The notes below the pieces were generated by a model. The model searched no databases. It was given only the letters and a program-made list of their open reading frames with translations, and was not told where the DNA came from. The position numbers and the translations under genes are program-made. Positions 36,334 through 64,000 of a DNA stretch of 64,000 nucleotides are shown in pieces; position 1 is the first letter of the stretch; each line of letters opens with the position of its first letter. The stretch lies in assembly GCA_963281255.1 (NCBI GenBank), contig OY725502.1:682001-746000 (forward strand), in the 5' to 3' direction. The DNA comes from Aphrocallistes beatrix (taxonomy: Eukaryota; Porifera; Hexactinellida; Sceptrulophora; Aphrocallistidae).

Positions 36334-39300
36334 ATGTCCAGAAGCACGCGTAATTTCCTAGACAGGTGTAGGGTCGTGCTGAGCAAGAGCCAGCAAGTGA
36401 GCGTGAAGGAGGTTCACAGCAGCGGTTGCTTCTACATCCAACTCCTCGAGACAGATGACGCGTACAAGCTGGATGAGATGTACGAGAGGCTAGAGAGACA
36501 GATGGCCACCCCTCCCTGGCCCAGATACTCACCGAAACTGGGAGAGATTGTCCTATCCTACTCCAAGTTCGTAATAAGTTTGTTATAGTCAGAGGTAGTT
36601 TTATAAGCTCACAGGCAGTGTTTCCCTCAGAATTATTGTAAAGCGTTTTAATTTTTATATTTATGTGGTTATTCCATTAAATCCATTAGTTAACAGCAAA
36701 AGCACGTTTTTTGACAAACTAATGCGTTACATTACGCGCTTAACGCCTCGGGGAAACACCGCTCACAGGATCCACACATGCATTCATAATAGCCTGCAAT
36801 TATGTTGAATTATAGAATATTAGATTTTTCATCATTGTACATGTGTGAACCTGACTGCATTAAATTAATCCACTAAATACACTGAAGCCGGCATGGCATC
36901 AACCCTGTAACCTGAAGTCCGTATTGTTAGAGCACGGAGCTGTGTGAGCAGATCCGAGGTTGTGAGTCTGTTCGGAGCTCAGGAACAGGTACGCGTGTTC
37001 CACGTGGACTACGGCAGCTACGAGAGTGTCCCCCTATCCCGCCTCGCCCCGCTCCCCAGCCATGCCATCCAGCCCACGCGGCAGGCAGTCAAGTGCTGTC
37101 TCTCCGACGCCACCTGTCTCACACCTGATGGCGTGGACACTCTGTCTGCCCTCACGCTGGAGAAGGAGCTGGGCGCGGTGCTGGAGTGGAGCTACGACCT
37201 GGTGCTGTACTACGTCACGCTGTCACAGCAGAACGGGAAGGGCAGCGTGGGGGAGCTGCTCGTGTCTCAGGGCATGGCCACTCCTCTCGTTAGGAGCTCG
37301 ATGCTGGAGGTCGGACTGGAGGTGAGTATCACATTTGTTCTTAACATAGATCCGTACAGTTTATAGTTTGTTTGTGTCTCAGGTTTCATGCCACTTGTCA
37401 GCTGTGATATCTCCTTCTGAGCTCTACTTCCACTTCTCCTCCGATCTGAAGAACCTGAGAGAGCTAGAGACCCTGATTAACTCGTCTCGCCTCTCCCCCT
37501 TCCGATCCATGGCTCCGCTCCCCGACTCCTTGGCGCGGGAGGGTGCCTACTGCCTGGTGCAGAACCCTGTCGACATGATGAAGTACAGAGCCAGAGTCTC
37601 CTACGTCAGACCTACTGACAGGACCGCGCAAGTCAACCTTGTGGATTTCGGAGATACGATCAATGTGAGTCGCATTGCAAAACTTGTATTGTTATGAATC
37701 TTATGATGTTGTAGTACTGAAACAGACACGTCCATACGTACAACTATGTACTTGCATTATACAATGCACCTCACTCCATTCACCCCAACACTTGCATACT
37801 TGTATCTAACACAGATCATGAGACTTTCAGTATATGAACATTGTATTCAGATAACTGAACCAATGAACTCTTTCTGTTTTGTTACAATTCTCCGATTGCT
37901 CCGGACACAGGTAGCGTACGACCACCTGTTCATCATGACGCCTGACACAGCCCAGCAACCCGCACTCTGCTTCGCGAGCTGTCTCAGCATGAGACCCACC
38001 AACTCCCCTAGCTGGCGCCCGGAGGCCAGGGAGGCGCTGCTGTCTCTGGGACAGAAACACCGGATGAACTTCGAAGTGGTGGTTAACAACCGCATCGGGA
38101 CTGTGCACTGGTTGAAGGTGTTCTCCTCAGACACGAGACGCCCGATGGAGGAGTCTCTCCTGCATCTGGGCTCGAAGGAGAGCAACTACTACCTCAACCT
38201 GTACCGCACCCCTCACGGGCTGGGACTGGAGGAAGGGCAGAATGAGGCGGCATGTGTTACTCACGTGCTGGACTGGAATACGTTCTATGTTCAGCTGACC
38301 AAGCATTCGGGAGAACTGGACTGGCTCACTGAGAGGTAAGAGTACCTTGATGCTCAAACTATGCTCATATTATGCTCAAAATATGCTAAAATTATGCTCA
38401 AAATATGCTAAAATTATGCTCAAAATATGCTAAAATTATGCTCAAAATATGCTCAAAATATGCCCAAAATATGCTAAAATTATACCCAAAATATGCTCAA
38501 AATTTGCTCAAATTATGCTCAAATTATGCTCAAAATATGCTCAAATTATGCTCAAAATATTTATGACGGGAAATTAACATTATGCTCGAATTATTTTTGA
38601 CGGGAAATTAACATTATGCTCAAATTATTTATGACAGGAAATTAACATTACAAGCGCGCTTCGCTTGCTTGCGCTCCGCGGCTGGCGGACACTTTGTGTC
38701 CGCCAGAGGCGCCCTTTGGACGCCTGTGGTCACCATTGATTAATTATATTGGTGATAACATCTCTAAATACCTAAAATTAGTAAGGGAGCGCCGCTTCCC
38801 CTGCACTACACCCCCGATTCCGCCGTATTATGATCTCACTGCATGGCTTAGGTTGGCGGAATCCTTCTCAGACACAGAGCTAGACGAGCAGTCTCTCCGC
38901 AGTCCCACTGAAGGAGTCCTGTGCGCGGCTCCCTACTACGAGGCTAACACCTGGGCGAGAGCTGTGGTGACTAGTGTGCCACATTGCACCGGAGACAAAG
39001 TGCAGCTCTTCTACATAGACTACGGGAATAAGGACGATGTGAGCAATGCAGTACTGTTATAGTAAACTATCCAAGTCTCATGTCCGCCAAATTGTTTATT
39101 TTAATCAGAGTACAATGGCTTAAAGTTGTTACCTTTCTACTACGTACTTTGGTACAACATTGTACACTAAGGTTTAGTAGTACTTCCAGTTTGAGGTTTG
39201 TGACAGTGGAAACCTTTAATTCCTGAGGTTGCCAGCAATCACTTGGCTACGCATAGCTATGATCGTACAGAGAATATTCCCTAACTTCCATCATATTTCA

Positions 39301-42300
39301 TTGGTTAAACATTGCAGTTACAGTAACTTTCCCGCAGCATTGCATTGCATTATTATTAATTAAGAAATGAATTCCTGCGTTCACACAGGTGCTGCCCTAC
39401 GACCTGAAGATAATCCCGACCTTCGCAATGCACCACCCAGCCATGGCTATAGAGTGCGGTCTGAATGCGACGAGACAGAGGGCTACCTACAACCTGGAGG
39501 AGTTCAAAGATCTCGTCACACAGAAAGCTCTCTCCCTCACAGTCATCAAGAAGTCTGGAGGTATGACAAATCGGTTCACGAATGGGAACTGAATTCTGAT
39601 GTATTGTGTGTATAATGCTATTATACCTATTCAATGTGTAGATAAGTATTCAGTCACACTCGTGGATAAAATGACGGGAGGTGGAACAGACATTTTGGAT
39701 TCTTTAGAAATATCTTTCAACACCTCGCCGGTCTCTTCTGCTAGTTTTGATTCGCTTCCCACTTCTCCTCTGAGTCCTGTTGCTATCCCGATGCGCTCCC
39801 TACCTCTCAACAAGAAGATCAGACTCATGTGTACAGATGCGGACTCTCCCAACCATTTTAGATGTCAGGTAAGATACGCACAATCCAGTGACATAATACG
39901 TTTAGTCCAAATGTTAACAAAAATATAATTAAGTAATACGGAAATATGCCCAAAATATGCTCAAAATATGCTCAAAATATGCCATACTTGCCAACTGTCC
40001 CGTTTTTGGCGGGACGTCCCGCTTTTTTCACTCTTCTATTGAGCTATTTTTACGAGTGTCCCGCTTTTACTTGAAATTTCCCCATTATGTCCCGCTTTTT
40101 TAATTCTATGTATAGTACATTTCTATTGCGTCCCGCCATGTCCCGCCAAATTCAACGCTGAGTCCCGCTTTTATCATGGCTCAGGTTGGCATGTATAATA
40201 TGCTCAAAATAAATGTATGTCCGATTGTAATTCCATTCCTACTTTTGTATTAATTTGTAAATCGCTACAAGACCAATATATTGCAGGGTTGATCTGGGGA
40301 GGGATGACTGCTATTTCCTTTGAGATTGAGGCGGTAGTGCAATTCAATTTGGGAACCATCACCAGTTTTGACTACAAGAAGACAAATGATTATCTTGCAG
40401 GATAATATCTTCCAGTCACAAGAACTTACTTGTTAGAATTATATTTGATAGTTCCAATTAATTAAGCAATTGTGCAACCGAGGGAACATCTCAACAGGAT
40501 GACCTCACTGAGACATAAGGACATTTTAATTGTCTTTGTTTAAGTAAATTTATATACTATAACAATTATCCACGCTTGCTGATAGTAATACATTCGTAGT
40601 AATAAATTCTATCAGAAATTAAACAAATACAGTAAAAAGTTTATTTTCAAAAACAGATTCCTTGTGTGCGTCTGTAAATTTTTAGTACAAAAATCAGGTC
40701 CGCTCCGGAAGAACCTCATAAATCTAAACTGTATTCTTATTAGATAGATTTATCTTAAGTTGAACCACAAGGCAAACAAAATCTCAGAATGCTACGATAT
40801 CTCAAGATATTACGATCTCTAGATAGATAGATATATACAAGCGCGCTTCGCTTGCTTGCGCTGCGCGGCTGGCGGACACTTTGTGTCCGCCGGAGGCTCC
40901 CTTCGGTCGCCTGGGGTCACATTGGTTAATTATAAGGGATAATGCGTCTCTAAATATGTCTGTCCTACTGTGATAATCGATATCACTCGAAAAATCACCA
41001 AATTTGTAAATTTTAAAATTTTTGATGTGTGATGATGTATACTATGGGCTAACCCAGATTATATCCCCAACCCTAATAGGGGACCAGTCAACTCGTACCA
41101 ACTACCAACTCGTCCAAAAGCACTTGATCAACTCGTACCAATTACTGTGAAATACAGTTGTAACAACATAGAAAACCTGGAACCAGTCAACTCGTCTCAA
41201 AATTCACTTATAGTATTAGGATTATTATCGTCTTTGTAGTGTGATATACGTAGTATAATATATATTAAAATATCCTGAGTTCATTTTTGTTTCAACATAG
41301 TACAGTAAGCCTTCGATTAGCCGAACAATTTCACTTCTCCAAATAGAAATCTTTAGCATGGGCAGAATATACCCGGTATATTCTGTCCTAGCCTAGATTA
41401 TGCCCCCTTAGGGGTATAATCTGGGCTAGGGGGCTATATTCTGGGCTAACCCACTTCATACCCTGGGGTATAATCTAGGCTGTTACACCGGATTACACTC
41501 CACAAAGCGACTCAGCCGAAGGCTTGCAAACATAGAATATGGGAGTTTTTATGCACATTACATACTAAAAGCAAAGTAATAGAAAATGCTAAAAAGAAGG
41601 ATATAATAGAATGAAAAAAGTAAACAGGTATATAATGACATACAGGAATGAAAACAAGAATAATTACTCAAAGGAAATTCAACATTCCAGTGAGCTATTG
41701 CCCAAATCTAGATTAGGGATTATTACCCGTAACGACATGACTAAGTCCTGTAGCCAAACTTTGGTTCAATGCAGCAATGACCTCGTTTACAGCTTCTTCT
41801 TGACTTCCAATGTTTTCAGATGCAATTGTGTCCGCTACATTTACATGTGCTACAGTACTTTTTCCCTGTTTACCATTCACCTGCACTTGAATATTATGAT
41901 ATGTTACACCGTCGTTTACAAAAGTCCCTCGCGTAGCCACGCGCATGACATCGTTTGTGTGTAACGTTCCCGCGCCTCTCCATAAATCCAAATATACAAG
42001 CTTCGCGATTACATCATTGGATTTATTTCTCTGATTCTGATTGGGTGGATAATAATTTGCAATTGGTCCTTCTTCGTTTATCTCCATAGGAATGACTGGA
42101 AGTTGATAGGTAGGTGCGTGGATATTCTAATCTAGGCTAGCTGGTATCTCCGTATTTATATGTGAGACTTGTTTACGCTACAGTAAAACTGACATGAGAA
42201 TAAGTGCAAAGTACAAAGCAGAATTGTTAACACTCAGTCGTATGAAGATATATTATTCGTAACTTTTGTATCACAAACTTTCCCAAATCATCATCTAAAT

Positions 42301-45300: not shown

Positions 45301-48300
45301 ACAAAATTTCGGCTGGGTATAGTCATGATACAGCGTCTCGTAGTAAAGGCCTAGAAACTTGGTGACATTGAAAGATTGCTTAACGAAGTCGGACCGAATG
45401 TCTTCCTGCTTGAGACAGTGTTCTGTACTGGCTAGCTGGATCCAAAGCAGAGTTGCCAGCAACACGCTTATCATCTAATTTACTTAAGCTTGAAATTTAG
45501 TTCACTACGTATTTTAATAGTACTTTACAGGGTTGCCGTGGGAATGGGAATCTGTGGCAATTCCCATGAAAACCCCACAGATTCCCATGAGAAAACCCAC
45601 AGATTCCCTTATGGGATGGGAATGGGAATGACTTTAAGGCAATGGAAATTCCCACATGTGGGAATTTGTGGGATTATGTGAGCAACACTACCTTACATGC
45701 AAATCCTGGATTAAAGCTGACCCTTTTTTATAGATTCGAAAGTGATCTCGGTTCATATTCACGAGGTTGACAGCAACAATTATTATGTTCCCAAGGTCGT
45801 ATTGGAGGTTCTACAACCAACAGGTCTGGATGATTTGTTAGTAAATGGAGGCTATGCTGTATTTAGCTCAGAAAAGACTAATATTCCAAGCTACTCGGTT
45901 CCAGTCGGAACAATTCTACAGGTTTGTATTGTATTAGGTATATTGATAATCCAGAAAATGATTATTTATATTAACAGAAAGTCTATTATTTACGATTCTA
46001 ACTTACATTGTCCCATACCAATACCTATGTTCTACATTCCTACGTTAATCCTGTATTTCTCTCCAATAGATTGTAGTGAGTCACATCACCAAGGAGCAAC
46101 AGGTGTATTGTATACCATGTGAGCACGGAACTGAGATTGACCAGCTCGTGTCTAGTCTTGAGTCGTGCCAACAGCACTCTGCCCTCTTGTCTCCCAAGGC
46201 GGGACAGTTCGTAATCGCGAGGAGCCCTTCCAGTGGATTGTGGAATCGAGCCAGGATCCTAGACAAAGTTGAGAAGAAGCTGTTTCAAGTTATCTACATT
46301 GATATTGGTATTTCTATTTGCGTATTTATTACATAAGCCATGATAAAAACGGGACGCAGCGTTGAATTTCGCGGGACATGGCGGGACGCAATAGAAAAGT
46401 ATTATGCATATAATTTAAAAATCCGGGACAAAATGGGGAAATTTAATGTAAAAGCGGGACAGTTAGCAAGTTTGTTATTATAATTACTGGATTTCTACTG
46501 ATGATTCTAACTGATTTTATTCTTCATTCGTTTGTTGTGCCAGGTAAGACAGAGAGAGTCGACAGCTCAAATTTCCGCCACATGCCTTCGTCCGCGGCTG
46601 ACGTACCCTGTCAGACGTTCCCCTGCCTCCTGTCAAACCTGGACAGCTACACCTCCGCCCAGAACTTCGTCCAGAGGTTCAGGGGTTTGGTGGGGGCTGG
46701 CACGCTGACGTGTGAAGTGCTCAGAGTGGATGGAGACGGCATGCACCATGTTACCCTAAGACTCCCAGGCGGACAGAATCTAATCAACGAGTTGTTCAAA
46801 CAAGGAGCAATTTCTGAGAAAGCCTCAAGTGAATCAAATTGTAAGTTTATATTGAGTGTTGATGCCTATTTTAGATATCTCTTGACAATACACGATGTAT
46901 TTTCATGTAACAATACTGTCTCTTATACGAACTTGATACTCATTGTGAAAGGCCTGCATTATACCATAGACTCATGAGCTGTTGTGTCGTCATTCTGCAT
47001 AGAGAGTTATTACTTATTGATCATCCATAAGGGCTTTCCAGTAAAGATTCTGATATATAAGCTCTACAAGAAATGTATTATTAGCACTGTGTGATCGGCA
47101 GGGAAATTACGGTATATTTCTCTCTACCACATAATTCCAGAATGATCTTATATAATCAAAATTCCTTGCAATTTCTTTATTTGCAACAAGTTATTATAAA
47201 ACTGGTTTATTTTAATTAGAAATGTTCTTCATTATAGACTAGCATAGCTGACATTGATCTTTCAGCTCTCTTGCATTTTATCGAATTCCATTTTGCCTTC
47301 AATGAGCTTCGGACAGTTTCCTTCAGGTAAAGGAAGAACGAGTTTTTATAAAACCAACTTTAGAAATATTCAATTTATTCCTACCACATTTCATTGTGAT
47401 TCAACAACAGTACTTTATGGTTGCTCTGCTCAATCCTTTATTGCAATTCCTACCTCGATGGTTTCTCGACATATTATCTATATCTGACTATATACGCTAC
47501 TCTATTCCTATTCTACAACCATCCTCTAGCTATTTACACATCAGTACCCTCACAACTCGGAGAACACTATCCGGTTTCGATTCAAAACACACTCCCAGCG
47601 GAACCCGAGATGGCCATCACTCCCCACACGACAAGCGAAGTTTTGGTCTCGCACCTAGACAACCCTGGTAACTTCTATGTCCAGTTCGCCAACTCTCACG
47701 CTCAGCTACAGATTATAAGCGAACAGATCAACCAGCACTACTCCAGTCTCAGCGAGATGGAGCTCAATAAGATCACACCCACAAGCATAGTCATAGGTGA
47801 GTACCATTACCAACAGGGCTTGCATTCTGTGCTTCGAACACAGAACAGAACGCTCTGTCATGATTCGTGAGTTAAATTCAGAATCTTAGTATCATGTCCT
47901 GAATGCCAGTCAACTCATGCCAACTCGTACCACATGTTCCTATGTTTGAACAAAGAGTTTATTTACTTTAGTCTCACAGCCTGTTATGTGATTTTATTCC
48001 CTTACTGTCCGTGTTAACGAGGGTGGGTCACAAGGATTATCTAGGAGCGCGAGACGCTCCTTTAGGCGTATGCTTTTAATCCCGAAGTGTTTAGGAGCGT
48101 GAAAATTTCGAATATCACTCAATTTGCCCTATATCATAATGTTAATTATCGAAATTTTATTGGTTAGAGATTAGGAGCATATCTCTGGAAAGCTTGATAA
48201 TACCGTGAAGGGTCAGCAACTAGTTTGTCAAAAGCAGTAGGTATTCAAACTCAGATGAATGGAATGCTAACAATGTGATTCTTTTTCTCTGTAGGTGCTG

Positions 48301-51300
48301 TGTGCTGCACTCGATTCTCTCACGACAGCATGTGGTACCGAGGCAAGGTGGTGGACGTGTCACAGAATGAAGTGGTAGTCCAGTACGTAGACTTCGGGAA
48401 CAGTGAAACGAAAACGGTGAATGACATCAAGTTGATGCACCCTAGCTTCTACACTCTGCCAGGGCAGGCTATCAAGTGCTGCCTGGTGGAGGTTGCCTCT
48501 CAGGTGAGGAACTCGGGGGTGGGGGGTAGGAGGATCGATCGGGGGCATATTTCTGCCGGTCTGGAGCATCCCTAAACTCTAGTCGATCCATTAGCTAACT
48601 TCTGCTTCCATTACTGATAGGAGGACTTATTCGTGCTTGGTAATCGGAAATGTTAATTTAGCTACGATTTGGTAAAGGGTACTCGTCACTTGAGTGAGGT
48701 TTAGCTATAGCGGATGACAGCGATCTGAACCTTTTTATTCCAATCAGGAGGACTGGCCAATGGAAGCCTGCCAGCTATTCCAAACACTGACTTTCAACAA
48801 AATGCTCCACTGTACCTTCCTAAACAAGTCAGAAGATGCGAGTTTCTACGTTTCTCTGTCTGACCCTCAGACCAGACTCAACATCGCTCACGTTCTCATC
48901 ACGTCCGGCTACACCAAGCCAGCCGCGAAGAAGAGCATCCAGGACCTAGACATAAAGAGCGACGCTCAAGAAAGCGTGTACATCAGCGATGTTAAGAATC
49001 CAGGTACGAATTTAGGACCAAAATGATACTTGTAACCAATGAGTTAGTCTTTCCCACTACGGACTTCTACTATTACAGTTACAAACAAGTCATAGTATCA
49101 CTCAATACAATAAAACAAATGCTCTAGCATACCAATGCAATGCAGTTTAGTATATTTGTAAGCGGCCATTCACATTGTTACATACACACACTAATCCCTC
49201 TCCATTCCCAGTCATGCAGACCCCATAGCAGTCCTCCGCCCACCCCCTACCCATCGTGTTTTGGAATCGGCCATCAGGTGAGTAGACCTTAAGACAGGCG
49301 TCCAGTCGAGAACTGATGATGAAGCATCCCCTATTATCAATCGTGAAGAAGTATTTCTCCCTGACAATGTGCTGGTCATCTAACTTGGTTACTCTTTGCA
49401 ATCCTCCTCCCACCTTGAAAACGTATACCGTGTTATCATTCAGTGGCAAGACGGTTAAATCGTCGTATTTCACGTGGATATCTACAGGGCTCTTTAGAGC
49501 TGGGTGGCTGATAGCAGTGATGTAATCGAGATCAGGTGTCAACACCTGTACCCGGTTGTTACCCTGATCACACACGTACACTGCCTCCTGAGTAGCGCAT
49601 AAGCCCCGGGGGTTCGCGAACTCTCCTTCTCGTTGTCCCTTCCCTCCACTTTTCTTCAGCAGCTCTCCGCTCAGTCGGAATTTGGTGATCTGTTTCGGTC
49701 CTACGTCTGTGACGTAGAGTGCATCATCGCAGACAGCTACACTCCATGGACTGTTCAAGTCCCCGATTTCGTGCAGAAACGCTCCTTCCATTGAGAAGGA
49801 CTTGACGCAGTTGTTGTACCTATCTGTTATAAATATGGTGTTTGTGGTAGGGCAAACTGATATCCCCCTAGGCCGCTTCAAGTTCCCACGATCCCCCTGC
49901 TTCACAGCTAGCAACTTCGGCTCATCTTGCGTCAGCACCCTCTCGTATTTCACCTCTATGCTCTTCATCGCTTCATTGAACTTCCATCTATTGTGTAGAA
50001 CAGTGCCAGTTGCAATGTTGGGGACCACTCGTATCTTGTCCCTGTACTCAGCGATATCTCTTGTCAGACTCTCTGAGTAATGGTCCTTCTTTTCCCTCAG
50101 TAGGTTGCTAGAGATCGTTGACACCAACCCTTCCATTGCGCTCTCGAGCTGATGGATCGCGCATTCTGCCTCTTTGTTATTCTCCTGAATCGTGTTGATC
50201 TGCATCAGCTCCGTCAGCAGTGCGTCCTTCCTCTCGTCCAGGAGTTCATGGAGTTTGTTGAAGAGATTTTGGATTTCTCTTTTTATTATGTTTAATTCTG
50301 CCTCGAACTTCTGTGCTACATCTCTTCCCTCCTGGGCAGCGTTTCTCTCCGCCATAGCAATGTTACTGATCTGATGCTGCTAATAGGCTAGCTGTGAGTT
50401 AGAAGTATCCATATTTATAACTTTCTCAGGAATATGATATCATATTAGCTAGCAGTTCATCTAATTTTTGAATTGTTCATGAATGCACTTGATGTGACAA
50501 TAAAACAGACGTAAAGAATGTTATTAACCCTCACAGGACATGGAATGTTGAAATGAAAGTGGAAGTTAATTGAAAATGAACTGAAAGTGAAAGTGAAAGT
50601 GGGGTCATTTCTATTTATACCTTTGACCCCAAGCAGAGGCGTAGCCAGCCCAATTTTTAGGGTGCGGCAATTCCGTGAGAGAGGGTTGCGGCACCCAATG
50701 CTAATTTGTGAAATTTTAGTGGGCACAGCCTTTGAGGTTGCGGCCTAGGCCCCATGTGCCGCACCCTGGCTAGCCTCTGACCCCAAGTATATCTAAGGGA
50801 TATTATTAATCAAAATGATTCCACTATTCGAAGTTTGCGGATGAAATCATATGTTAACTTCTATTTTTAGAGCACTTCCACCTCCACCTCAGCTCGTATG
50901 AAAGCAACCTAAATCAGTTCATGGACCAGATAACTAGCTTCTACTCCAGACCACAGGTCACCCAAATACTGAAGAACCCTGCCCCTGGAGATATCTGCTG
51001 CGTCAAATACTTGGATTCGAACTGGTATCGTGCTATTATCAGAGAGGTACATATTTATATGGACATAGTTAATTTGTAAAGTTGGGACGAATTACGTATT
51101 TCGTACAAGTTTTTACTATACGTATGGTTGATCAGAAATGTGAAATAGATTCAAGGTTAATTGAGCACAAATAAAGTAGACGATTATTTTCTTTCAATTA
51201 TAAGGATGAATCGAACTCTAGTTTTGAGGTGTTACTACTACATTCCAATCTACCGTGTTAGTTACTATGTATGTTTTATCACGACTGTCTGTCCCAGGTC

Positions 51301-54300
51301 AAAAGCACCATTGCGACAGTCTACATGGTAGACTACGGAAACATATTCGAGTCTTCGATCAAAGATTGTAGAGAGCTCCACGACTCATTCTACAAATTCC
51401 CCAAACACTCGATTGAGTGCTGTCTGCACGATGTGACGCTAGGAGCCACGTACACGGACTGGCTGCCTAACGCCATCAACTTCTTCAAGCATCAGACCGG
51501 TAAGTGGACTATGGATATTCTACTACAGTTCTATCAGCGTAATTATTCGTTTCATGCCTGCACTTAAAGTTGGCGATTTAGGTATTAAGAGTTACAGTGA
51601 ATCCACTGAACCAGGATTTATTCATCGGCTGGAAATATTTATTTGTATTAGATGTCTATAAATTTGCATATTTCAAGATTATAAAATATTCTTGAGACTA
51701 ACTTTCAACGGATAATATACGTATTTTTTTGAAATGTAGATTCAATACGATATTTCGTCTCAAAATTAAGTGTTAGAAGAGGTACGCTCAATGGCTGACT
51801 TTGACGGAAACAGTGTCCGTAAGCAGACAGCACAAACAGACGAATTGCACGTTTGACACAAATAACGACTTATCCATCTGTGTGACCTACGTGTACTAAT
51901 TACATAACTTTGTTGCCAATCGCATTTAGTGTAGCTAGATAGTATTTCAATTTCATATCGCCTTGTTTAGAGAAGCAACAGCTACTCGCGAAGTTCATTC
52001 AGAAGACTTCAGAGGATCGCTGGGAAGTCATTCTGTTGAACGGCAACAGAGACATCGGGAAACTCATCTGCGAGTCGGGCATGGCTATCAGCAAATCGTT
52101 CGCAGCTCGCTACGCACAGCAAGTACCAGCGGAGGTGCTACAACAATCTGCTAGCACGGATAGACGCAAAATGTCTGACGACAGTCCGTTAAGTCAGATC
52201 CCTCCTCCTCAGGTTATTTACTATGATTCTATACCTTATAAAACCTACCGATGTAATATACGACAGTTGTTCAAAGCCGTTTAATTCGACCCATTATCGC
52301 AAACTGTTGTTTATCAGTTTGCAGCCAACGGGTCACACAGCCTGAGATCTTAACAGCCACGTCTTCCCATGTGATTGTGGTTTTCCTATCTCGTATATCT
52401 AATTATGTATAGTTATCAGGAATGGCGGAACTTTCGTCCCTGGAATTTTCGTCCCCTGAAATGCCCCTTTCGCACCTCCCGATTTCTCAATCAAAATGCC
52501 TCATTTTCACCATTTTTTTCAAACATACTCCACTCCAAAAGCCTCACTTTCCATTTCTTACATGTTAGTGCCCGTTTATTTTAGTCTCTAATGAGACAAA
52601 AATTCCGGAGACAAAAATTCCAGGGACGAAAGTTCCGCTTACCAGTTATCACCAGTACACGTATTAAGTGGCAAATGGAAATACTCTCGAATGTTTCATC
52701 TAATAACTCTATCACAGAGCACGAGTAATTACAACAGCAGATCTCCCAAGAAATTGAAGGAGATAATCCTCCCTCGAGGCCACGTGTGTGAGGCCTACCT
52801 CCCCTACGCCGTTAGTCCGACTGAGTTCAGCGTACAGCTGACGAGTTACTCCGGGCAGCTGGACTCCATGATGGAAGAGCTCACCCGCCACTGCGAAATG
52901 TCGCAAAATGTACAAATTCCGCGCGCTCAACCTCAGATGATGGTAGCAGCCAAGTGAGTATTAACTCTCTACTCAATCCCATTCCATTATCACATTTAAG
53001 TTGCTAGGTTACACATAATGCCCCTAGATTATCGCTGCCGTAACAATTTAGGTTTACAGAGGATGATAAGTGGTACCGTGCGGTTATCATCGACACGGAT
53101 CCGCCTAGCATTGTGAAGGTCCAGTACATTGACTACGGGAATAAGGAGATGCTGGATATAGGACGCTTAAAGCCTCTCCCCTCACACCTCGCCACCTTGC
53201 AAGCGCAAGCCATCAGATGTGCCCTCAGAGGGTTCAGTAAGGACACAAAGTTCGCACCTGATCTAATGGGCGAATTCAAACACGCTGTGACGGATAGGTT
53301 TGTTTATCATTTGCTCTGAATCCATGGTTTCAGTCCATATCACTAGCAATATACGTAGGTCGTATTGATTTAGTCATACCGTTGTCATTGTGAATCCTTT
53401 TCCCCCAAACCATTACCCATAATATTATAATGTCGGACGGGGCAATTATTAAGGTGGATGTCGCGGTTTTTAGGTGAGGAAATAGAGCCTAAAACGGATC
53501 TCAAGAATTTGTAAGTTAACCCCATCGTTGCTAGAGTAACTCAGCGATATTATCGCTAGAATCAGTGGCATTGTCGCTCAGCGCCATATAAGTATTCTGT
53601 TATAATTATTGCTAGAATTTAATAAAGAGATATTAAATGAATCTGACAAGAATCCCTTGGGACTTATTTTATAGGCAGTGCTGATCGATCAATGCTAGTA
53701 GAGATATAACTTATAAATGTAAACTCCATAATTGGCGCCCAAATATTTTTAATTTACTAAAGTATGCATATGTGAATGAAAAGTTATATTTACTTCTCAC
53801 TCATAGGTACTTCACCCTACAAGTTCTCAATTTCCACATGTCGTACTACGAGGTCGATCTGGTGGATAACACGACCTCCCAGAGCATGGCGGCGCTATTC
53901 CTAGCTAAGACGAAGAATCCCGGGTCCTCTCAGTTGTTCCTCGGCGATCTGAAGCCGCTCATACTTTCCAATGGAACAGAACTTATCGCTCAACTCTGCG
54001 TAATGAACTCTCCCAACGACTTCTACATGCAGATAGCAGAGACGAGTGAAGCACTCAACAGTATGGAATTCCAATTAAACAAGTCTATCAGCGTTACAGT
54101 GCCACCAAAGACTTTTGACTTAAAAGTAAGTCATACTATGTAACGTTCACTCGGTCATAGCACACTCGAGATTCCTCGCGATGACTAATAGAGCTCAATT
54201 ATTCTGTTATGTTTCATACATTCTCCTAAGTACACAGGCTTATACATTGTATTACTCTGATGAACTTTCATAGGTCGGCGTCCCCTGTGCTGCCTGTTTC

Positions 54301-57300: not shown

Positions 57301-60300
57301 TCGGGTTAAGAAATGAATTCGCAACCTTTGTCTAAACTGTCGGAACGGAAGATATTCCGGTCTTTGTTTGAAATGTGATTTGCATCTCCGCCACGTTACA
57401 ACTACAAGTCCAGCAGACTAACATAGTAGAAGTACTGACATCTTCCTTTCAATGTCATGCCAGTCCATTTATAGACTTAGGATTGGTTAGATTAGTTTGA
57501 GTTTGTTAACATGTCCTAGTTGTTCAGCTGGCCATATGGCTATTGTGCTGTAAAACAAGAATTCTTTCTTTAGTATTTGATGTAATAAATAATTTAACAA
57601 TAATTAACTACATTTAATAGTTAATTGGAGAATATCAAGGCATGTGTTTAACAATGCTTCTAGTTAACTTCCATTTTCACTGTTAATTAGCATTAACTTA
57701 CTCCTGTGCTCTCTAGTCCCATATTGCATAATATCGACTATTGATTTTCAAATTGAGAAAATCATTCGTTCTAGGATTCTTCAGTTATTAATTAATAATC
57801 ATGCCGTGATGTTGCATTTAACGAACAAGCGAAAGCTCTTCGAGGTTCGAGCCTTCTAGAATTTGTTTAGTGAATCTAGTTAGTCCAATATATTCGCTTG
57901 GTATATTTTCATAATTTGGCAGACATGAGAGGATGCATAGAATAATTTAGGGGCGAATACATTCAGGCTTTCCCTAAACCAAATTAAGATTCAAATTGCC
58001 CGTATAGGTATCTACGTGGTAGAACTGTATTCACATCAGACCAAAGATGCGCTCAAGTTCACTAGCTCCCAGCCGTCCGCCTACCCTGTCATCACACTCC
58101 CGTCCGGGACAATCGACCGTTTCAAAGTCTGCCACATCCTACCGAGCGGCGTCTTCTTTATACAACGAGTGAACGCCGCATCCCTGCTCGACTCCATCTC
58201 CACAGAACTGGCCTCCTACGTTGGTCAGATGCAGACAGGGATGCGACCCGAAGAGTTGCAGCCCGGCACGCCTTGTGGTATAAAGTTCTACCAAGACAGC
58301 CAATGGTACCGGGGGAAAGTGATCCGCATAGTGCAGAAGCAGGTGGAGGTACAATTCGTCGATTATGGAAACGATGATCTAGTCTCGATGCAGTCAGTCA
58401 TAGCTCTTCCTGACGTGCACCTGAACCACCCAATGCAAGCCCTGCCGGCGATACTGCAGTCAAGACGGGAGCAAGGGGCTAAGCCTTCTATCAGAGAGTT
58501 GGAAGACTTCCAATCAAAGACGCATGAGCAAACGATAAAGATTAAGATCATCACGAAGGATAATGAGACGCACGTTGTGAGGCTTTTCTTCCTCAACGAC
58601 GAGGAGATTTTCATTGGTCCGCCTGGGCTGAAACCGCCGGGGTATAGGAAAAATCGGCCAGGAGAGGAAGCTCTTGAAAGCCCCACTGAATCGGGTCCTT
58701 TCAGTGCGAGAGACAGGATAGGTAGCAAGCAGGACACGGGATCCAGATTCGGTAGTGCTCCCCCTAGCCGTGATGAGTGGAGGAAGGATAGGGAAGATGG
58801 CGGTAGCGGGTTCAGACCGAGAGGTGAGGGAGGATATAGCAGAGAGAGGCGTGAAGGAGGATACAATAGAGAAAGAGGAGAAGGAGGATATAGTAGGGAT
58901 AGGAAAGAGGGAGGTTTCAATAGAGAAAGAGGTGAGGGAGGTTTCAATAAGGAAAGGAGTGAGGGAGGTTTTAATAGAGAAAGAAGTGAAGGAGGTTTCA
59001 ATAGAGATAGAAGTGAAGGAGGTTTCAATAGAGATAGAAGTGAGGGAGGTTTCAATAGGGAAAGAGGTGAGGGAGGTTTTAATAGAGAAAGAAGTGAAGG
59101 AGGTTTCAATAGAGATAGAAGTGAAGGAGGTTTCAATAGAGATAGAAGTGAGGGAGGTTTCAATAGGGAAAGAGGTGAGGGAGGTTTCAATAAGGAAAGA
59201 AGTGAGGGAGGTTTCAATAAGGAAAGAAGTGAGGGAGGTTTCAATAGAGAAAGAAGTGAGGGAGGTTTCAATAGAGATAGAAGTGAGGGAGGTTTCAATA
59301 GGGATAGAAGTGAGGGAGGTTTCAGTAGAGAAAGAAGTGAGGGAGGTTTCAATAGAGATAGAAGTGAGGGAGGGCGAAGTGAAGGAGGCTTTAGCAGAGA
59401 GAGACGAGAAGGAGGGTTTAATAGGGAGAGGCGTGAAGGTGGATTCAATAGGGACAGAGGGGAGGGCAATTTTGGATCTGAAAGGAGAGAAGGGGGGTTC
59501 AAAAACAGAGATGGCGAGGGTAAGCAGAGGTTCGATAGGGGAGAAGGTGGATTTCGGGGTGAGAGGAGTGAGACAGGGTTCAAGGACAACTATGGTGATC
59601 GCAATCAACGGAGTTTCCAGCAGCGTGGAGAGAGGAATTTCGGGGATGGAGAGAGGAGAGAGCGCGGATTTGGAAGTGGAGATAGTGAGCGTAATTTCGG
59701 CGGTCGAGATCGTAAGGGATTTGATTCAAGAGAGAAAACGGAAAGTTGGAATGGATCTGAAGACATCAGAGGAAAGTCGGATGTCCTGGGTACTGGGGGA
59801 TGGGCTAAAAACGCCGAATCCAATCAAGAATCTGTCCATTGGGACACTAAACCTGAAGTCAAATCGACTGACTCCTTTACTGAAGAGAGGTTGGTGATCA
59901 ATCAGGCTTATGAAGTCTACCTTCCCTTTATCGTTTCTTCCAAAGAATTCTACTGCTCGCTCACTCACAAGGGAGAGAGTCTCGAAGCGGTCATGAAGAA
60001 GTTAGCCGACCTAGGCAGCACCGACGCTCTGACCGCTGTAGCCGCGGATTCAGTCACGCCTGGCAAGGCCGTTGTCGCTGTCTATTCGGCTGACAGCTGT
60101 TTCTACAGAGCTAAAGTGATGTCTCCCCCTCACTCCGGAATGGTGGAGGTGCAGTATGTAGATTATGGTAATAGCGAAAAAGTTTCAGCCGAAAATTTGA
60201 AAGCCATTCCCATTGACCTTCTGGAGCTTCCAACCCAAGCTATTCCCTGTATGCTACCACAGGAAGATGAGAAGTTCAAAGAGACGTTGGAAGTACATGA

Positions 60301-63300
60301 GTGCGTTAAAATAAAAGTTAGTAATGTTGATGGGGAGAAGACAACAGTTGACATATTCACTACAGACGGTAGAATAATCTACAAAATGAAACCCTCTCCA
60401 GTGGGCAAAAAGTTGGAGGTTTATTTCTCACACGTGCCATCACCATACGAGTTTTATTGTCAGAGCACAAACACAACAACATTGGACAATCTTATGCTTA
60501 TGCTGTCCGAGTTAACCAACTTGACACCCCTGCCAATGCAGCAGATCAAACCAGGAGAAGTTTGCGTGGCTGTCTTCTCCGAAGATGGATCTCTCTACCG
60601 AGGCATCATCATGGAGGTCAGAAGCGAGGCACAGGTTTTGGTACAATTCATGGATTACGGGAATTCCGAAGTATTACAACCTTCTAAAATCAGTCAGATG
60701 CCTTCTAATATCTCTTCATTTCCCAGTCAGGCTTACAGATGTGCTGTGTTACACCCAACCTTCAAGTTAACTCCAGATATAGTGAATGAATTCGTTGAGA
60801 AAATGAACGCGCAAGAGAAGGTTACGATCGATATAAAGGAAGCTCACGCGAACCAATATCTACTAGTAGAGATCCTAGACTCTTCTGGTAAACCGATTCC
60901 ACTTCCTTTCACCGTCCCAACTTCCTCATCAATCGCCCAAGCGCCCTTGTATGCGATTGGAGCGGGGATAAAATGTGGAATTTCGCACATTGTCAGTCCA
61001 TCTGAGTTCTACTGTCAGAGTCTATCCATCGCAGAGCCTCTAGAGACCATGATGAACAATATAGACAATGACGTCACGAACAACCTGCTCTCTAAAGTCA
61101 AGTCATTGGATGCAGGGCTACAATGCGTGGCCCAATTTTCAGAAGATAACGGATGGTATCGAGGAGTTATCACTCAGCGTGTGGACGCACACAACTTCCA
61201 AGTGGAATATCTCGATTACGGCAACAGCGAGTCAGTGAATTATAAGAATATATACGGTTCTAAGCCGGAGTATCTCGCCACTCCTCCCTACGCCTTCCTG
61301 TGTGGCGTTGCCACGGAGGAGCCAGCAGGGGGGTGGAGTCAAGAACTGATAGCAGGATTCAGCTCTCGTGTTAAAGATGCTAATGTTATTGTCCAAATAT
61401 GTGAAGTAACTTCTGAGAGGAAATACAAAGTTAAACTGCTGGACGAGTTTGGAATTGAGGAAATAGCTTTGCCTGAAGTCAAGCAGTCTCCTCCTCCAAA
61501 AGAAGAGAAAGAGAAAGTTTTGAAATATCAAGAAATTCCAATGCCACAAGAACCTATCAACGTATTTATCTCTTCCATCAACTCAGTTCACTTGTTTTAC
61601 GTACAACAGTCCGGATCCGAGACAGAACTGGAGCAGTTAATGCAGAGGGTAGAACAGCTGTGCACGAGTGGAGGCCTCACTGCTCCAGACAAATGGTACC
61701 CGGACATGATCTGTTTAGCTAAGTTCTCGGACGGCGTTTGGTACCGCTCACAGGTGGACCAGGTAACAGAGGACCAGGTCCTGGTCACCTACGTCGACTA
61801 CGGAAACTCTGAAATGGTCTCAAAGACAGATGTCCTGAGTATAAACTCTGATCTTCTACGGATGCCGTTCGCTCGGCCGTGCAGATTTGCTGCTCGATAC
61901 GGTATCAAGGGTACCGCCGAAATTGAAACAAAGTTTGCTGAGTTTGAAAGTGAGGCATTAGTCCTAACTGTAGTGCAGAAGAGTTTGAATGGGGTGTTTG
62001 AGTGCGAAGTGAAGACACTGGTTGACACGACTGACGATCCTATTGACGTTGGAAACGAGCTGTGTGAGTTTCTCCCAGAAGAAGTGAGGTGCAGGGAGAT
62101 GGTCCGCTACTGTGAAACCACAACTGAAGAGCTCACTGCTTCCATCCTCGAAAAGACTCTTGCCTACCTCAGCAGTCCTACCAAACACTTTCATAGAAAT
62201 TGCCTAGCACTGGGTTCCAGACATACCGTGTATCTGGCACACACAGATAGTGAGCGCGGCCTGCTCTACGTTCAACTTGCAGCTGATGCCACTGCCATAC
62301 AGGAGCTCATGGATTCCATAGCGTTGTACTGTGCCGACCAAACTAACCTCAGGAAACCGGATGGTCTGGAGTTAGGGAGTTTGTGTCTCGCTAAATTCTC
62401 TGAAGACGAAATGTGGTACAGGAGTGAAGTGCTGGAGAAGTACTTAGAGTTCGATCACATTAAAGTCCAATTCGTAGACTATGGAAACGCTCAAGTCACA
62501 CACGTAGATTCTATCGTGGCTATTTCGCCTGAGATCTCCAAGCTCCCAGTCTACAGATACGTCTGCAGGATAGACACCTGCTACCTTATTCCTGAAGGGT
62601 TCGATCTCTCCTCAACACTCTCCAGTTACGAGATTGAGAGCTTGTTTGAAATCGAAGTGAGTAGAGTTGAATCAGAAATACATTTTGTAAAGCTGAAGGA
62701 CGATTCCAATAAGCAAGATATCGGTGAGTTGATTAGCAGTAAAGTCCCAGTAGAAATGCGGCAACAGATTTTATGCAAATACGAATCAGCATTCGTACAC
62801 GATCTAGTGAATGGCTTGGTTGACAAAGCAGCCAAGGGCTTAGAGAATGGGATTAAACAGAATGAAACGAGTGAATGCCTTGAGAACTTTGTGAATGGTT
62901 ACGTCAATGGAATCATAGACATCTCTCGGGCTAAACTGGAGCACGATCAAGAGCTGGCAGTAGAGGAGTTTATAAGCAATGTTCTAAGCATGTCTACCAA
63001 TCACGTCGCTCGCATACAGCAAGGCTACAAGACCTTGCCTCTTCCACGTGACTCGACATTTAGCGTAAATGTGTCCCACATCGTATCGACCCAGTGCTTC
63101 CACATACAAGTCCTCTCCCAGGCGGTTGACCTGTTCCAAGCGACTGAAGAGATTGAGGCATACTGCGCCCAGCCTGCTAACACCCTCCCGCTAGACCATG
63201 TGGACACCCACATGCCCGTGCTGGCCGTCTTCTCACAGGACAGCACTTGGTACCGCGGACTGATAATGGAGGGCGAGGAAACAGGAAACAAGCGAAGGGT

Positions 63301-64000
63301 GAAGTTTGTTGATTTCGGGAACTCTGATGAAATATCTGTACAGAGGATCTGTCACCTGCCAGACCACCTCCTCGCCAAGCAATCTTTCAGCTACCAATGC
63401 CGCCTTTCCAGCGAGTACGAGCTGAGCGATGACGAGAAAACCACTGCTGTGTTCAGTGAGCTGACCGAGCTGAAGACGGACCTAATGCTGGAGGTGATCG
63501 GATTCTCGGAGGGCGTTTATGAAGTTCGTCTTTTCGAGGCTAATGGAAAGGAGATAGGTGTCACAGTCAACACCCTCCCATTCTTCTCTCCTGACCCCAA
63601 CGATCCGCCCTCTCCAGTCACCCTGACCTGTTTCAATATGCACGAATCATTCTACCTCCAAACGCTAGCTAACCAATCTTCCCTGTCCGACCTGCAAACT
63701 CAAATGGTTGAGTTTTGCAACAAAGAGTCTGTGCTGAACGCAACAGTTCCAATAGAACAGCTTGTGCCTGGTAGTCTAGTACTGATCTATCTCGGTGAAA
63801 GTTGGAACCGTGCGTCCGTCATAACTACCTCCCAGTTCAGTGGAGAGGTACAAGTGCAGCTCTTCGACTATGGTCACACGCAGACAGTGCCTGTCACGCA
63901 GGCAAGGCTCCTCCCTCCCAACTCTCCTATCGCAGGTCTGCCTGCTCTCGCATTCCATTGCACCCTGCCAGCTCACTACTGTCTCATTTCCTGCCCCCCT
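36334..64000 (+). CDS. Giant multi-Tudor-domain protein (3' end outside window)
   Basis: 27 exons join in phase to about 4,010 residues, still open at the edge: 36334-36566, 36931-37321, 37383-37664, 37911-38335, 38852-39038, 39389-39560, 39642-39868, 42830-42932, 43016-43260, 43365-43473, 43611-43741, 43936-44082, 44152-44374, 45734-45921, 46070-46307, 46544-46840, 47545-47796, 48295-48503, 48748-49003, 50871-51046, 51298-51499, 51971-52212, 52718-52953, 53052-53297, 53807-54125, 54274-54574, 58008-64000. At least 18 Tudor domains are visible by WYRA/G...V.YVDYGN-type cores, for example in exons 5, 9, 13, 18, 21, 24 and 26, and eight in the last exon. Spacing and flanking strands suggest extended (eTudor) units that read symmetric dimethyl-arginine, as in Drosophila Tudor and vertebrate TDRD proteins of germ granules and the Piwi pathway. 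A GGFNRERSE-type repeat follows the eleventh domain. Orthology to a specific TDRD is not claimed. Confidence 0.9.
38349..38645. repeat. TGCTCAAAATA minisatellite in Tudor intron 4
   Basis: About 300 bp of imperfect 11-12 bp units (ATGCTCAAAAT, ATGCTAAAATT). Near the end are three longer copies of a unit containing GACGGGAAATTAACATT. The same short unit recurs at about 39944-39982 and 40195-40215 around the MITE at 39983. Confidence 0.9.
38648..38745. repeat. Dispersed GC-rich repeat, copy 2
   Basis: Head portion of the repeat described at 2742 (ACAAGCGCGCTTCGCTTGC, GGCTGGCGGACACTTTGTGT). It ends about 105 bp before Tudor exon 5. Confidence 0.75.
39983..40197. mobile_element. TGTCCCG-family MITE, copy 2
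   Basis: Near-identical to 29184-29400, with ends CATACTTGCCAACTG and TTGGCATGTAT. It is inserted inside a TGCTCAAAATA minisatellite; AATATGC is directly repeated on both sides. Confidence 0.85.
40837..41035. repeat. Dispersed GC-rich repeat, copy 3 (with tail)
   Basis: Carries the GC-rich head and the AT-rich tail with ATCGATATCACTCGAAAAATC-like sequence, parallel to 2742-3000. This shows that head and tail move as one unit of about 200-260 bp. Confidence 0.75.
41306..41529. mobile_element. MITE-like element with AAGCCTTCG ends
   Basis: AAGCCTTCGATTAGCCGAA on the left is mirrored by AGCCGAAGGCTT on the right. The interior has repeated TATAATCTGGGCTA words in both orientations. No clear target duplication was found. 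Confidence 0.5.
41713..42087 (-). CDS. Hypothetical small ORF nested in Tudor intron 7
   Basis: Open frame of 124 codons on the minus strand from the ATG at 42087. The frame also continues about 15 codons upstream without an ATG to a TAG, where an acceptor-like CTAG precedes. The protein is hydrophilic (NYYPPNQNQRNKS, VATRGTFVNDGVTYHN) with no membrane segment or signal peptide, and I do not recognise a family. Coding-like composition and the length in AT-rich sequence are the only support. It may be a small gene, part of a spliced gene, or a fossil of a mobile element. Confidence 0.35.
   Translation of the reverse strand: MEINEEGPIANYYPPNQNQRNKSNDVIAKLVYLDLWRGAGTLHTNDVMRVATRGTFVNDGVTYHNIQVQVNGKQGKSTVAHVNVADTIASENIGSQEEAVNEVIAALNQSLATGLSHVVTGNNP
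44584..44783. mobile_element. 200-bp imperfect palindrome in Tudor intron 13
   Basis: The outer arms (TAGAAATTAC-type at 44584 and GTAATTTCTA at the other end) and successive inner segments (GCCATCC/GGATGG, ACAAACGC/GCATTTGT) are inverted. The centre is an 18-bp stem (GTATAGTCTGGTACAGTT) with one mismatch around a 7-nt loop, near 44665-44707. A foldback MITE is the simplest reading; a structured RNA is possible. Confidence 0.65.
44857..45474 (-). CDS. Lipocalin-like secreted protein, nested in Tudor intron
   Basis: Intronless ORF of 205 residues, start at 45474. A signal peptide (MISVLLATLLWIQLAST) precedes a mature part. The motif FNVTKFLGLYYETLYHD resembles the first conserved region of lipocalins (G-x-W/Y-Y-E), as in apolipoprotein D. 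Later strands (FTIVCVGKEYSNP, FRAWVNDSVL, YDWIIEFQ, KVLFIGINFYTRDR) and spaced cysteines fit an eight-stranded barrel. Several N-glycosylation sites are present. Lipocalins carry small hydrophobic ligands outside the cell. The gene lies entirely within the intron between Tudor exons 13 and 14, on the opposite strand. Family assignment is moderate because the motif is imperfect. Confidence 0.65.
   Translation of the reverse strand: MISVLLATLLWIQLASTEHCLKQEDIRSDFVKQSFNVTKFLGLYYETLYHDYTQPKFCKCQRSNKELIPKLNMIYDNFTIVCVGKEYSNPLMFNLTDEKGVFRAWVNDSVLKRIPIEDTVVDVGVNRTTGEYDWIIEFQCVEHFDKVLFIGINFYTRDRFATNETQNAMLEAAKKNGIGEYVQKENLIVNDQKNCAYQDVESIFV
45529..45690. mobile_element. MITE-like repeat of GGGAATTTGTGGG words
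   Basis: Many direct and inverted copies of ATTCCCAC/GTGGGAAT. The ends AGGGTTGCCGTGGG and TGAGCAACACTA are roughly inverted. Flanks TACTTTAC and TACCTTAC match at 7 of 8 bases, suggesting an old hAT-type insertion just before Tudor exon 14. Confidence 0.55.
46336..46480. mobile_element. TGTCCCG-family MITE, partial inverted copy 3
   Basis: Reverse-oriented relative of 29184-29400 (GCGTTGAATTTCGCGGGACA), with one end missing and the other decayed (GGGACAGTTAGCAAG). In the Tudor intron after exon 15. Confidence 0.75.
46841..47544. other. Tudor intron 16
   Basis: No repeat is recognised. A short in-phase-in, out-of-phase-out candidate exon near 47266-47325 was seen and not used. The acceptor of exon 17 could be at 47530 instead of 47545; both keep the frame. 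Confidence 0.4.
49147..50355 (-). CDS. Coiled-coil / NHL-repeat protein, nested in Tudor intron
   Basis: Intronless ORF of 402 residues, start at 50355. Residues 1-145 are charged and helical (heptad-like, KFEAELNIIKREIQNL...). Residues about 150-402 form NHL-type beta-propeller blades: RPRGISVCPTTNTIFITDR, SPWSVAVCDDALYVTD, NPRGLCATQEAVYVCDQGNNRVQV, and a final CYGVCMTGNGEGLVCVC. This is the C-terminal half of TRIM-NHL proteins without RING or B-box, so ubiquitin ligase activity is not expected. NHL propellers bind protein or RNA. The gene occupies most of the intron between Tudor exons 19 and 20, on the opposite strand. It could be a retrocopy, since it lacks introns. Confidence 0.85.
   Translation of the reverse strand: MAERNAAQEGRDVAQKFEAELNIIKREIQNLFNKLHELLDERKDALLTELMQINTIQENNKEAECAIHQLESAMEGLVSTISSNLLREKKDHYSESLTRDIAEYRDKIRVVPNIATGTVLHNRWKFNEAMKSIEVKYERVLTQDEPKLLAVKQGDRGNLKRPRGISVCPTTNTIFITDRYNNCVKSFSMEGAFLHEIGDLNSPWSVAVCDDALYVTDVGPKQITKFRLSGELLKKSGGKGQREGEFANPRGLCATQEAVYVCDQGNNRVQVLTPDLDYITAISHPALKSPVDIHVKYDDLTVLPLNDNTVYVFKVGGGLQRVTKLDDQHIVREKYFFTIDNRGCFIISSRLDACLKVYSPDGRFQNTMGRGWAEDCYGVCMTGNGEGLVCVCNNVNGRLQIY
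50633..50778. mobile_element. hAT-like MITE (AGAGGCGTAGCCAG family), copy 2
   Basis: Ends AGAGGCGTAGCCAG and TGGCTAGCCTCT are inverted. GACCCCAA (50625-50632 and 50779-50786) is a perfect 8-bp direct repeat. It is the reverse orientation of the copy at 17068-17220. In the Tudor intron, 3 bp to about 90 bp beyond the nested NHL gene's 5' flank. Confidence 0.88.
52419..52643. mobile_element. hAT-like MITE in Tudor intron 22
   Basis: Long inverted ends (GCGGAACTTTCGTCCCTGG and CCAGGGACGAAAGTTCCGC) enclose 225 bp. AGTTATCA at 52411-52418 and 52644-52651 is a perfect 8-bp target duplication. Non-coding. Confidence 0.92.
54575..58007. other. 3.4-kb Tudor intron 26
   Basis: The largest intron seen. 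No conserved exon or nested gene is recognised. About 54640-54680 carries GTGCCACACCCTAAAATTC, a fragment of the AGAGGCGTAGCCAG family. At 56401-56428 CCGTATATACTCGAATAATC resembles the end of a DNA transposon. Elsewhere nothing is recognised. Confidence 0.5.
58820..59490 (+). repeat. In-frame 27-bp repeat coding GGFNRERSE
   Basis: About two dozen units of a nine-residue motif, GG(F/Y)(N/S)(R/K)(E/D)R(S/G/R)E, run through the giant Tudor exon. The DNA unit is 27 bp and highly regular, with one shortened unit near 59370. Because 27 is a multiple of three and stop codons are absent, other frames on both strands are also open and give misleading ORFs. Confidence 0.93.

Follow-up and report, generated by a model that had tools for sequence, protein, structure and literature searches.

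How many Tudor domains can a single protein carry? According to a passage of PMC12261137 (2025), no known protein has more than the 11 domains of Drosophila Tudor. Exact-phrase searches of open-licence PMC text turned up no Tudor domain count above 11, and the passages of PMC12147562 consulted here, in which Tudor genes were surveyed in 111 holozoan species with sponges among the clades, state no maximum. In a window of 64 kb from the genome of an early-branching animal, probably a sponge (bases 682001-746000 of contig C16, in an assembly of 100.5 Mb and 28 contigs), a first-pass annotation had described a multi-Tudor scaffold starting at 36334, with 18 Tudor cores before the window end and over 4,000 residues. 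The adjoining 19 kb were added to the present analysis, and positions are window coordinates unless a contig or locus is named.

Results

Array size and domain identity

The long open frame at the 3' end (57941 to the stop codon at 66031), which holds 11 Tudor units, served to build a Tudor profile that was run on six-frame translations of 30000-83000. The plus-strand matches form a series from 36385 to 65983, with only two others on that strand (3.7 and 3.0 bits), and the ten units upstream of the open frame (T1-T10) are interrupted by introns. The window itself contains 17 complete units plus one more core, that of T18 (DYGH at ~63866), which agrees with the 18 cores reported earlier. Three further units, T19-T21, lie 3' of the window end and are followed by the stop codon (C16:748031, or L009:3031); past it, up to coordinate 83000, the best Tudor match reaches just 3.3 bits. 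Extending the locus, as the first-pass annotation had advised, thus brings the gene model to a total of 21 extended Tudor (eTud) domains, 4,686 residues and 525.6 kDa. By arithmetic from that model, the spliced coding sequence amounts to ~4,010 residues as far as base 64000, so that the predicted length of over 4,000 residues is already reached inside the window.

In the proposed PF00567 scan, each of the 21 units, taken alone, passed the TUDOR cut-off of 23 bits (44.7-101.3 bits for T1-T10, 59.7-94.9 for T11-T20 and 81.3 for T21). A chance origin of the matches is excluded: no unit scores below 44.7 bits (the highest reaching 101.3), whereas on the minus strand of 30000-83000 there are just three profile matches, all at or below 4.0 bits. 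Several PF00567 Tudor domains are thus carried by one protein, eleven of them in one exon. When the profile of T11-T21 was compared with solved structures, maternal protein Tudor of Drosophila ranked first (4q5y, E 1.6e-44), followed by TDRD1, with alignments over positions 11-168 and 3-167 of 168, respectively. Judging from these alignments, the units would each have a Tudor core within an SN-like fold, that is, the eTud domain described in passages of PMC9002060. The identity of the gene as a multi-Tudor scaffold is upheld.

Gene structure

The gene was modelled with a purpose-written, splice-aware finder combining codon log-odds with generic splice-site weights. Training of the codon table used exon 27 together with four other Tudor loci, and the non-coding background included introns 7 and 26, so that the model is no independent result for these stretches. 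At default costs the finder returned one gene from the ATG at 36334, the start codon annotated before, to the stop at 66031, whether Tudor information was supplied or not, and with the same exons (26 of the 27, the other being the corrected one). The best model is a single plus-strand gene of 27 exons with one open frame, in which the only stop is the terminal one (Table 1). It was obtained with three minus-strand ORFs masked, which removed the predicted exons 49220-49277 and 49777-50030, antisense to a nested NHL gene. Exon 5 taken as 38786-39038 made a poor joint in T3 (two fragments, 3.1 and 57.4 bits), and with the acceptor at 38852 T3 became a single 79.9-bit unit. One copy of a near-identical dispersed repeat, noticed by eye, lies directly upstream of the false acceptor. 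For the minus-strand ORF at 44857-45474, a lipocalin identity was considered and dropped, as it had neither Pfam nor PDB support.

Table 1. Features of the locus in window coordinates (window end at 64000).
Feature	Position	Strand	Remarks
Exon 1	36334..36566	+	Start codon, first half of T1; weak donor GTTCGT (score -0.9)
Exon 2	36931..37321	+	Second half of T1, cage lost
Exon 3	37383..37664	+	T2, first part
Exon 4	37911..38335	+	T2 end and T3 start within one exon
Dispersed repeat	38650-38730, 40840-40915		Near-identical copies in introns 4 and 7
Exon 5	38852..39038	+	T3 core; acceptor hand-moved from 38786
Exons 6-7	39389-39560, 39642-39868	+	T3 end, T4 start
137-aa ORF	41713-42126	-	In intron 7; no Pfam match
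Exons 8-10	42830-42932, 43016-43260, 43365-43473	+	T4
Exons 11-13	43611-43741, 43936-44082, 44152-44374	+	T5
205-aa ORF	44857-45474	-	Secreted-looking; nested in intron 13; no Pfam match, one PDB match (E 0.36)
Exons 14-16	45734-45921, 46070-46307, 46544-46840	+	T5 end and T6
Intron 16	46841..47544	+	704 bp, T6/T7 junction; long enough to conceal a gene boundary
Exons 17-18	47545-47796, 48295-48503	+	T7, first complete-cage domain
Exon 19	48748..49003	+	T7 end and T8 start
NHL-repeat protein	49147-50379	-	Resembles Thin and TRIM71, best E 7.9e-25; nested in intron 19, inside T8
Exons 20-22	50871-51046, 51298-51499, 51971-52212	+	T8
Intron 22	52213..52717	+	505 bp, T8/T9 junction; long enough to conceal a gene boundary
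Exons 23-24	52718-52953, 53052-53297	+	T9
Exons 25-26	53807-54125, 54274-54574	+	T9 end and T10
Exon 27	58008..66031 (58008..64000 in window)	+	Last T10 residues, T11-T21, stop codon
T11	58082..58588	+	Profile match, PF00567
Minisatellite	58851..59373	+	27 bp, in frame; 19.4 copies, ~174 residues of the T11-T12 linker
T12-T17	59879-60358, 60377-60874, 60938-61438, 61526-62014, 62189-62698, 63026-63535	+	Profile, PF00567
T18	63587..64096	+	Cage lost; crosses window end
T19, T20, T21	64151-64654, 64817-65296, 65492-65983	+	Past window end, in L009

One gene or several

That all 21 domains belong to one protein is a property of the gene model, for which the anatomy of exons and domains is a stronger argument than the gene finder. 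By the profile bounds, 23 of the 26 introns lie inside a Tudor unit; the others are introns 10 (137 bp), 16 and 22, while two more, intron 2 (61 bp) and intron 14 (148 bp), are close to a unit edge. Since the introns cut inside Tudor units, neighbouring domains are tied together, and in exons 4, 7, 14, 19, 25 and 27 the end of a unit is followed by the start, or the whole, of the next. Exon 27 needs an upstream exon, because the first Met of its frame is residue 97, ~50 residues into T11, and because it starts with profile positions 162-168, read as the last residues of T10.

Over 18 parameter settings the finder reported one gene in 11 (with 33 exons in two of these) and two or three genes in the other 7. 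The latter parses arise when gene boundaries are made cheap, and they split the region at introns 6, 7 and 18; as these lie within Tudor units, such splits would cut T4 or strip T3 or T7 of the last part. A single forced split costs at least 8.4 nats, this minimum being at intron 18, followed by 9.7 at intron 6 and 9.9 at intron 7, and as 8 nats are the preset cost of a start and a stop relative to an intron, the finder alone says little at these positions. Nor is it specific by itself, since the reverse strand also yields a long model (41 exons and 2,548 residues, without Tudor matches; score 422 versus 1,301 forward).

The evidence is softer than elsewhere at introns 16 and 22, which fall between domains. 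We regard it as unlikely that the region comprises two or three adjacent genes on the same strand, for example cage-less T1-T6 followed by T7-T21 (fifteen domains), or a boundary at intron 22 that leaves T9-T21 (thirteen). In favour of a boundary, genes are closely packed here, with the upstream ELO gene ending 434 bp 5' of exon 1, the cages of T1-T6 are broken whereas T7 has the first intact one, and seven parameter settings split the region. An in-frame ATG is present at 47610 in exon 17, but a coding signal extends 21 codons (+6.8) 5' of the first ATG in that exon and reaches its acceptor; another ATG lies nine codons upstream of exon 23, where the frame scores neutral (-0.4 over 41 codons). 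Read-through beyond the donors of exons 16 and 22, however, appears non-coding (-9.2 and -4.4), and forced splits at the two introns cost 12.9 and 14.4 nats, 8 of these preset. Both introns are also free of AATAAA/ATTAAA, a weak point against a boundary, as the 3' side of the ELO gene is likewise without them and as many as 7 of the 26 introns do contain such hexamers, intron 26 alone having eleven. A protein from this locus accordingly has at least 11 domains (one exon). Were a gene to end in intron 22, the number would be 13, and 15 for intron 16; the best model, a single gene, is predicted to encode a 21-Tudor protein.

Methyl-arginine cages

The cage was scored over five columns, four aromatic and one Asn, whose roles we take to be those in the SND1 and Tudor structures. 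In the printed alignments of T19, the cage columns fall on F/Y/F/F/N in Drosophila Tudor and on F/Y/F/Y/N in TDRD1. A complete cage was found in 12 of the 21 domains (T7, T9-T17, T19 and T20), none of them before T7. The remaining nine are incomplete to different degrees: T3 and T8 keep four of the five residues, T5 and T21 three, T2 and T4 two, and T1, T6 and T18 one. Twelve domains thus have the aromatic cage and the Asn predicted to accept dimethyl-arginine, and the domain-by-domain check that the first-pass annotation had recommended favours its suggestion that the protein could bind many methyl-arginine ligands. Twelve is not a strict limit, and an incomplete cage is no proof of lost binding, because in Drosophila Tudor, as stated in a passage of PMC12261137, an altered pocket does not keep some of the domains from binding Aubergine.

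History of the array

The 21 units are, to judge by their sequences, old. Mean pairwise identity is 24% within T11-T21 and 21% within T1-T10, and these means, with a best pair (T15/T19) of 37%, led us to reject the idea that the array arose by recent tandem duplication. In the within-genome domain tree, in which 28 of 36 inner branches are unresolved and the bootstrap had not settled, T7 and T8 are sisters (97/93), T10 pairs with T11 across the big intron that they flank (86/92), T2 pairs with one unit of a paralogue on contig C6 (97/94), and the last-exon label needs four changes, a number as low as this in 1 of 500 shuffles, which indicates clustering. Among T1-T10, five pairs of intron positions are identical in column and phase versus 0.51 expected (P 0.0002, 5,000 draws; P 0.02 when a shift by one column is allowed), a hint that an intron-bearing unit was duplicated. 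The gene is intron-free for more than 8 kb at 58008-66031, as opposed to 26 introns in its 5' half, and such a pattern is expected from cDNA-mediated intron loss.

The intron-free half following an intron-rich one, together with the broken cages, could also be taken for a decaying or mis-assembled array rather than a working gene. This is highly improbable, as exon 27 runs for 8,024 bp without an internal stop, the units are merely 13-37% identical to each other and hence are not assembly duplicates, and all of them passed PF00567.

Linker between T11 and T12

In the 430-residue linker that separates T11 from T12, Gly (21%), Arg (18%), Glu (15%) and Phe (8%) are abundant; it has 11 RG, 2 GR and no RGG motifs. 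In 17 aligned units of the minisatellite inside this linker, the variability by codon position is 0.020/0.026/0.131. The repeat looks translated, with its protein sequence kept, because third codon positions vary the most.

PIWI and PRMT5 genes

The genome contains 24 PIWI-domain matches. Eight of the loci were read by eye; two have PIWI-clade-like ends in single frames of 883 and 989 aa, and the other six are Argonaute-like. Both PIWI proteins have N-termini with arginine-glycine (GRG or ARG) motifs, and PRMT5 matches are present on contig C9. The genome therefore likely encodes both candidate ligands (PIWI) and the putative methyl-arginine writer enzyme (PRMT5). It also gave two zf-C4 nuclear receptor matches and neither Cys-loop nor ionotropic glutamate receptor matches, the two zeros being zero in the control genomes as well; by the marker sets expected of sponges, this may fit a sponge.

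Discussion

Vertebrate TDRD1, TDRD6 and TDRD15 are multi-eTud scaffolds of the piRNA pathway and have far fewer Tudor domains than 21; among structural relatives of the last-exon profile, TDRD1 units come second. Within the genome, the C6 paralogue (L011:534-7253) resembles the gene in that a single open frame of 2,240 aa has eight Tudor matches (one of just 6.9 bits), but that frame holds under half as many domains. In 14 of the genome's Tudor loci other than the present one, the largest counts within a single unspliced open frame were eight and three. Drosophila Tudor, the best structural relative of the last-exon profile, appears similar in its long eTud array and varied binding pockets, whereas it has 11 domains and 2,515 aa (passages of PMC12261137) versus 21 and 4,686 here, and the Arg/Phe-rich stretch between T11 and T12 belongs to the present gene. 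On the one-gene model, 21 domains appears to be about twice the reported maximum. The gene is an extreme variant of an already known kind of multi-Tudor scaffold.

We consider it likely that the locus is one host gene for a 4,686-residue Tudor/TDRD scaffold with 21 eTud domains, in which the 12 caged domains bind symmetric dimethyl-arginine (sDMA) of PIWI proteins and a nuage-type granule is nucleated. The observations behind this explanation are the number of domains, the cage residues, the open frame and the presence of PIWI and PRMT5 genes; from them we infer one transcript, ligand binding and granule building. PRMT5 would methylate the N-termini of PIWI proteins, and the 12 intact cages of T7-T20 would probably bind the resulting sDMA; binding of Tudor to sDMA of Aubergine is described in a passage of PMC6915754. 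With many partners on a single molecule, the protein could seed a nuage-type granule in which piRNA work takes place, in germ or pluripotent cells. As for the nine broken-cage domains (T1-T6, T8, T18 and T21), their role is probably to stabilise the array, to bind with lower strength or to take unmethylated partners, the last of which the authors of PMC12261137, in the passages at hand, suggest for some Drosophila Tudor domains. The Arg/Phe-rich stretch probably adds weak self-association. The building of germ granules in particular is suggested by homology.

Cage-bearing Tudors can also bind methyl-arginine proteins other than PIWI, and to our knowledge sponges have no germ line that is set aside early. 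A single chain that serves as a scaffold of RNA granules independently of PIWI and the germ line would suit both points, yet we find it quite unlikely, considering that the closest solved relatives, Drosophila Tudor and TDRD1, are germ-line proteins and that the genome encodes PIWI proteins with GRG N-termini. A rather doubtful proposal is that the molecule is itself a granule core: the built-in Arg-rich repeat, methylated by a PRMT, would be bound in cis or trans by the protein's own Tudors, making it self-condensing with PIWI as a client. In sponges, genes for the kind of PIWI-binding scaffold that we favour are expected both in germ cells and in pluripotent ones.

How many partners can be held by a granule scaffold depends on its count of reader domains. 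If the 21-domain protein is real, very high Tudor valency occurs in what is probably a sponge and is not an insect peculiarity, and the mostly caged T7-T20 next to the broken-cage T1-T6 on the same chain would provide a natural system for testing how valency affects the formation of condensates.

Argonaute-like matches are many in this genome, and four are clustered on contig C13 (C13:444877-459986). Eleven of the 24 PIWI-domain matches, both PIWI genes included, lie in open frames of 477-1016 aa. With the long frame of the C6 Tudor gene, small-RNA pathway genes look intron-poor here, perhaps as a result of retroposition.
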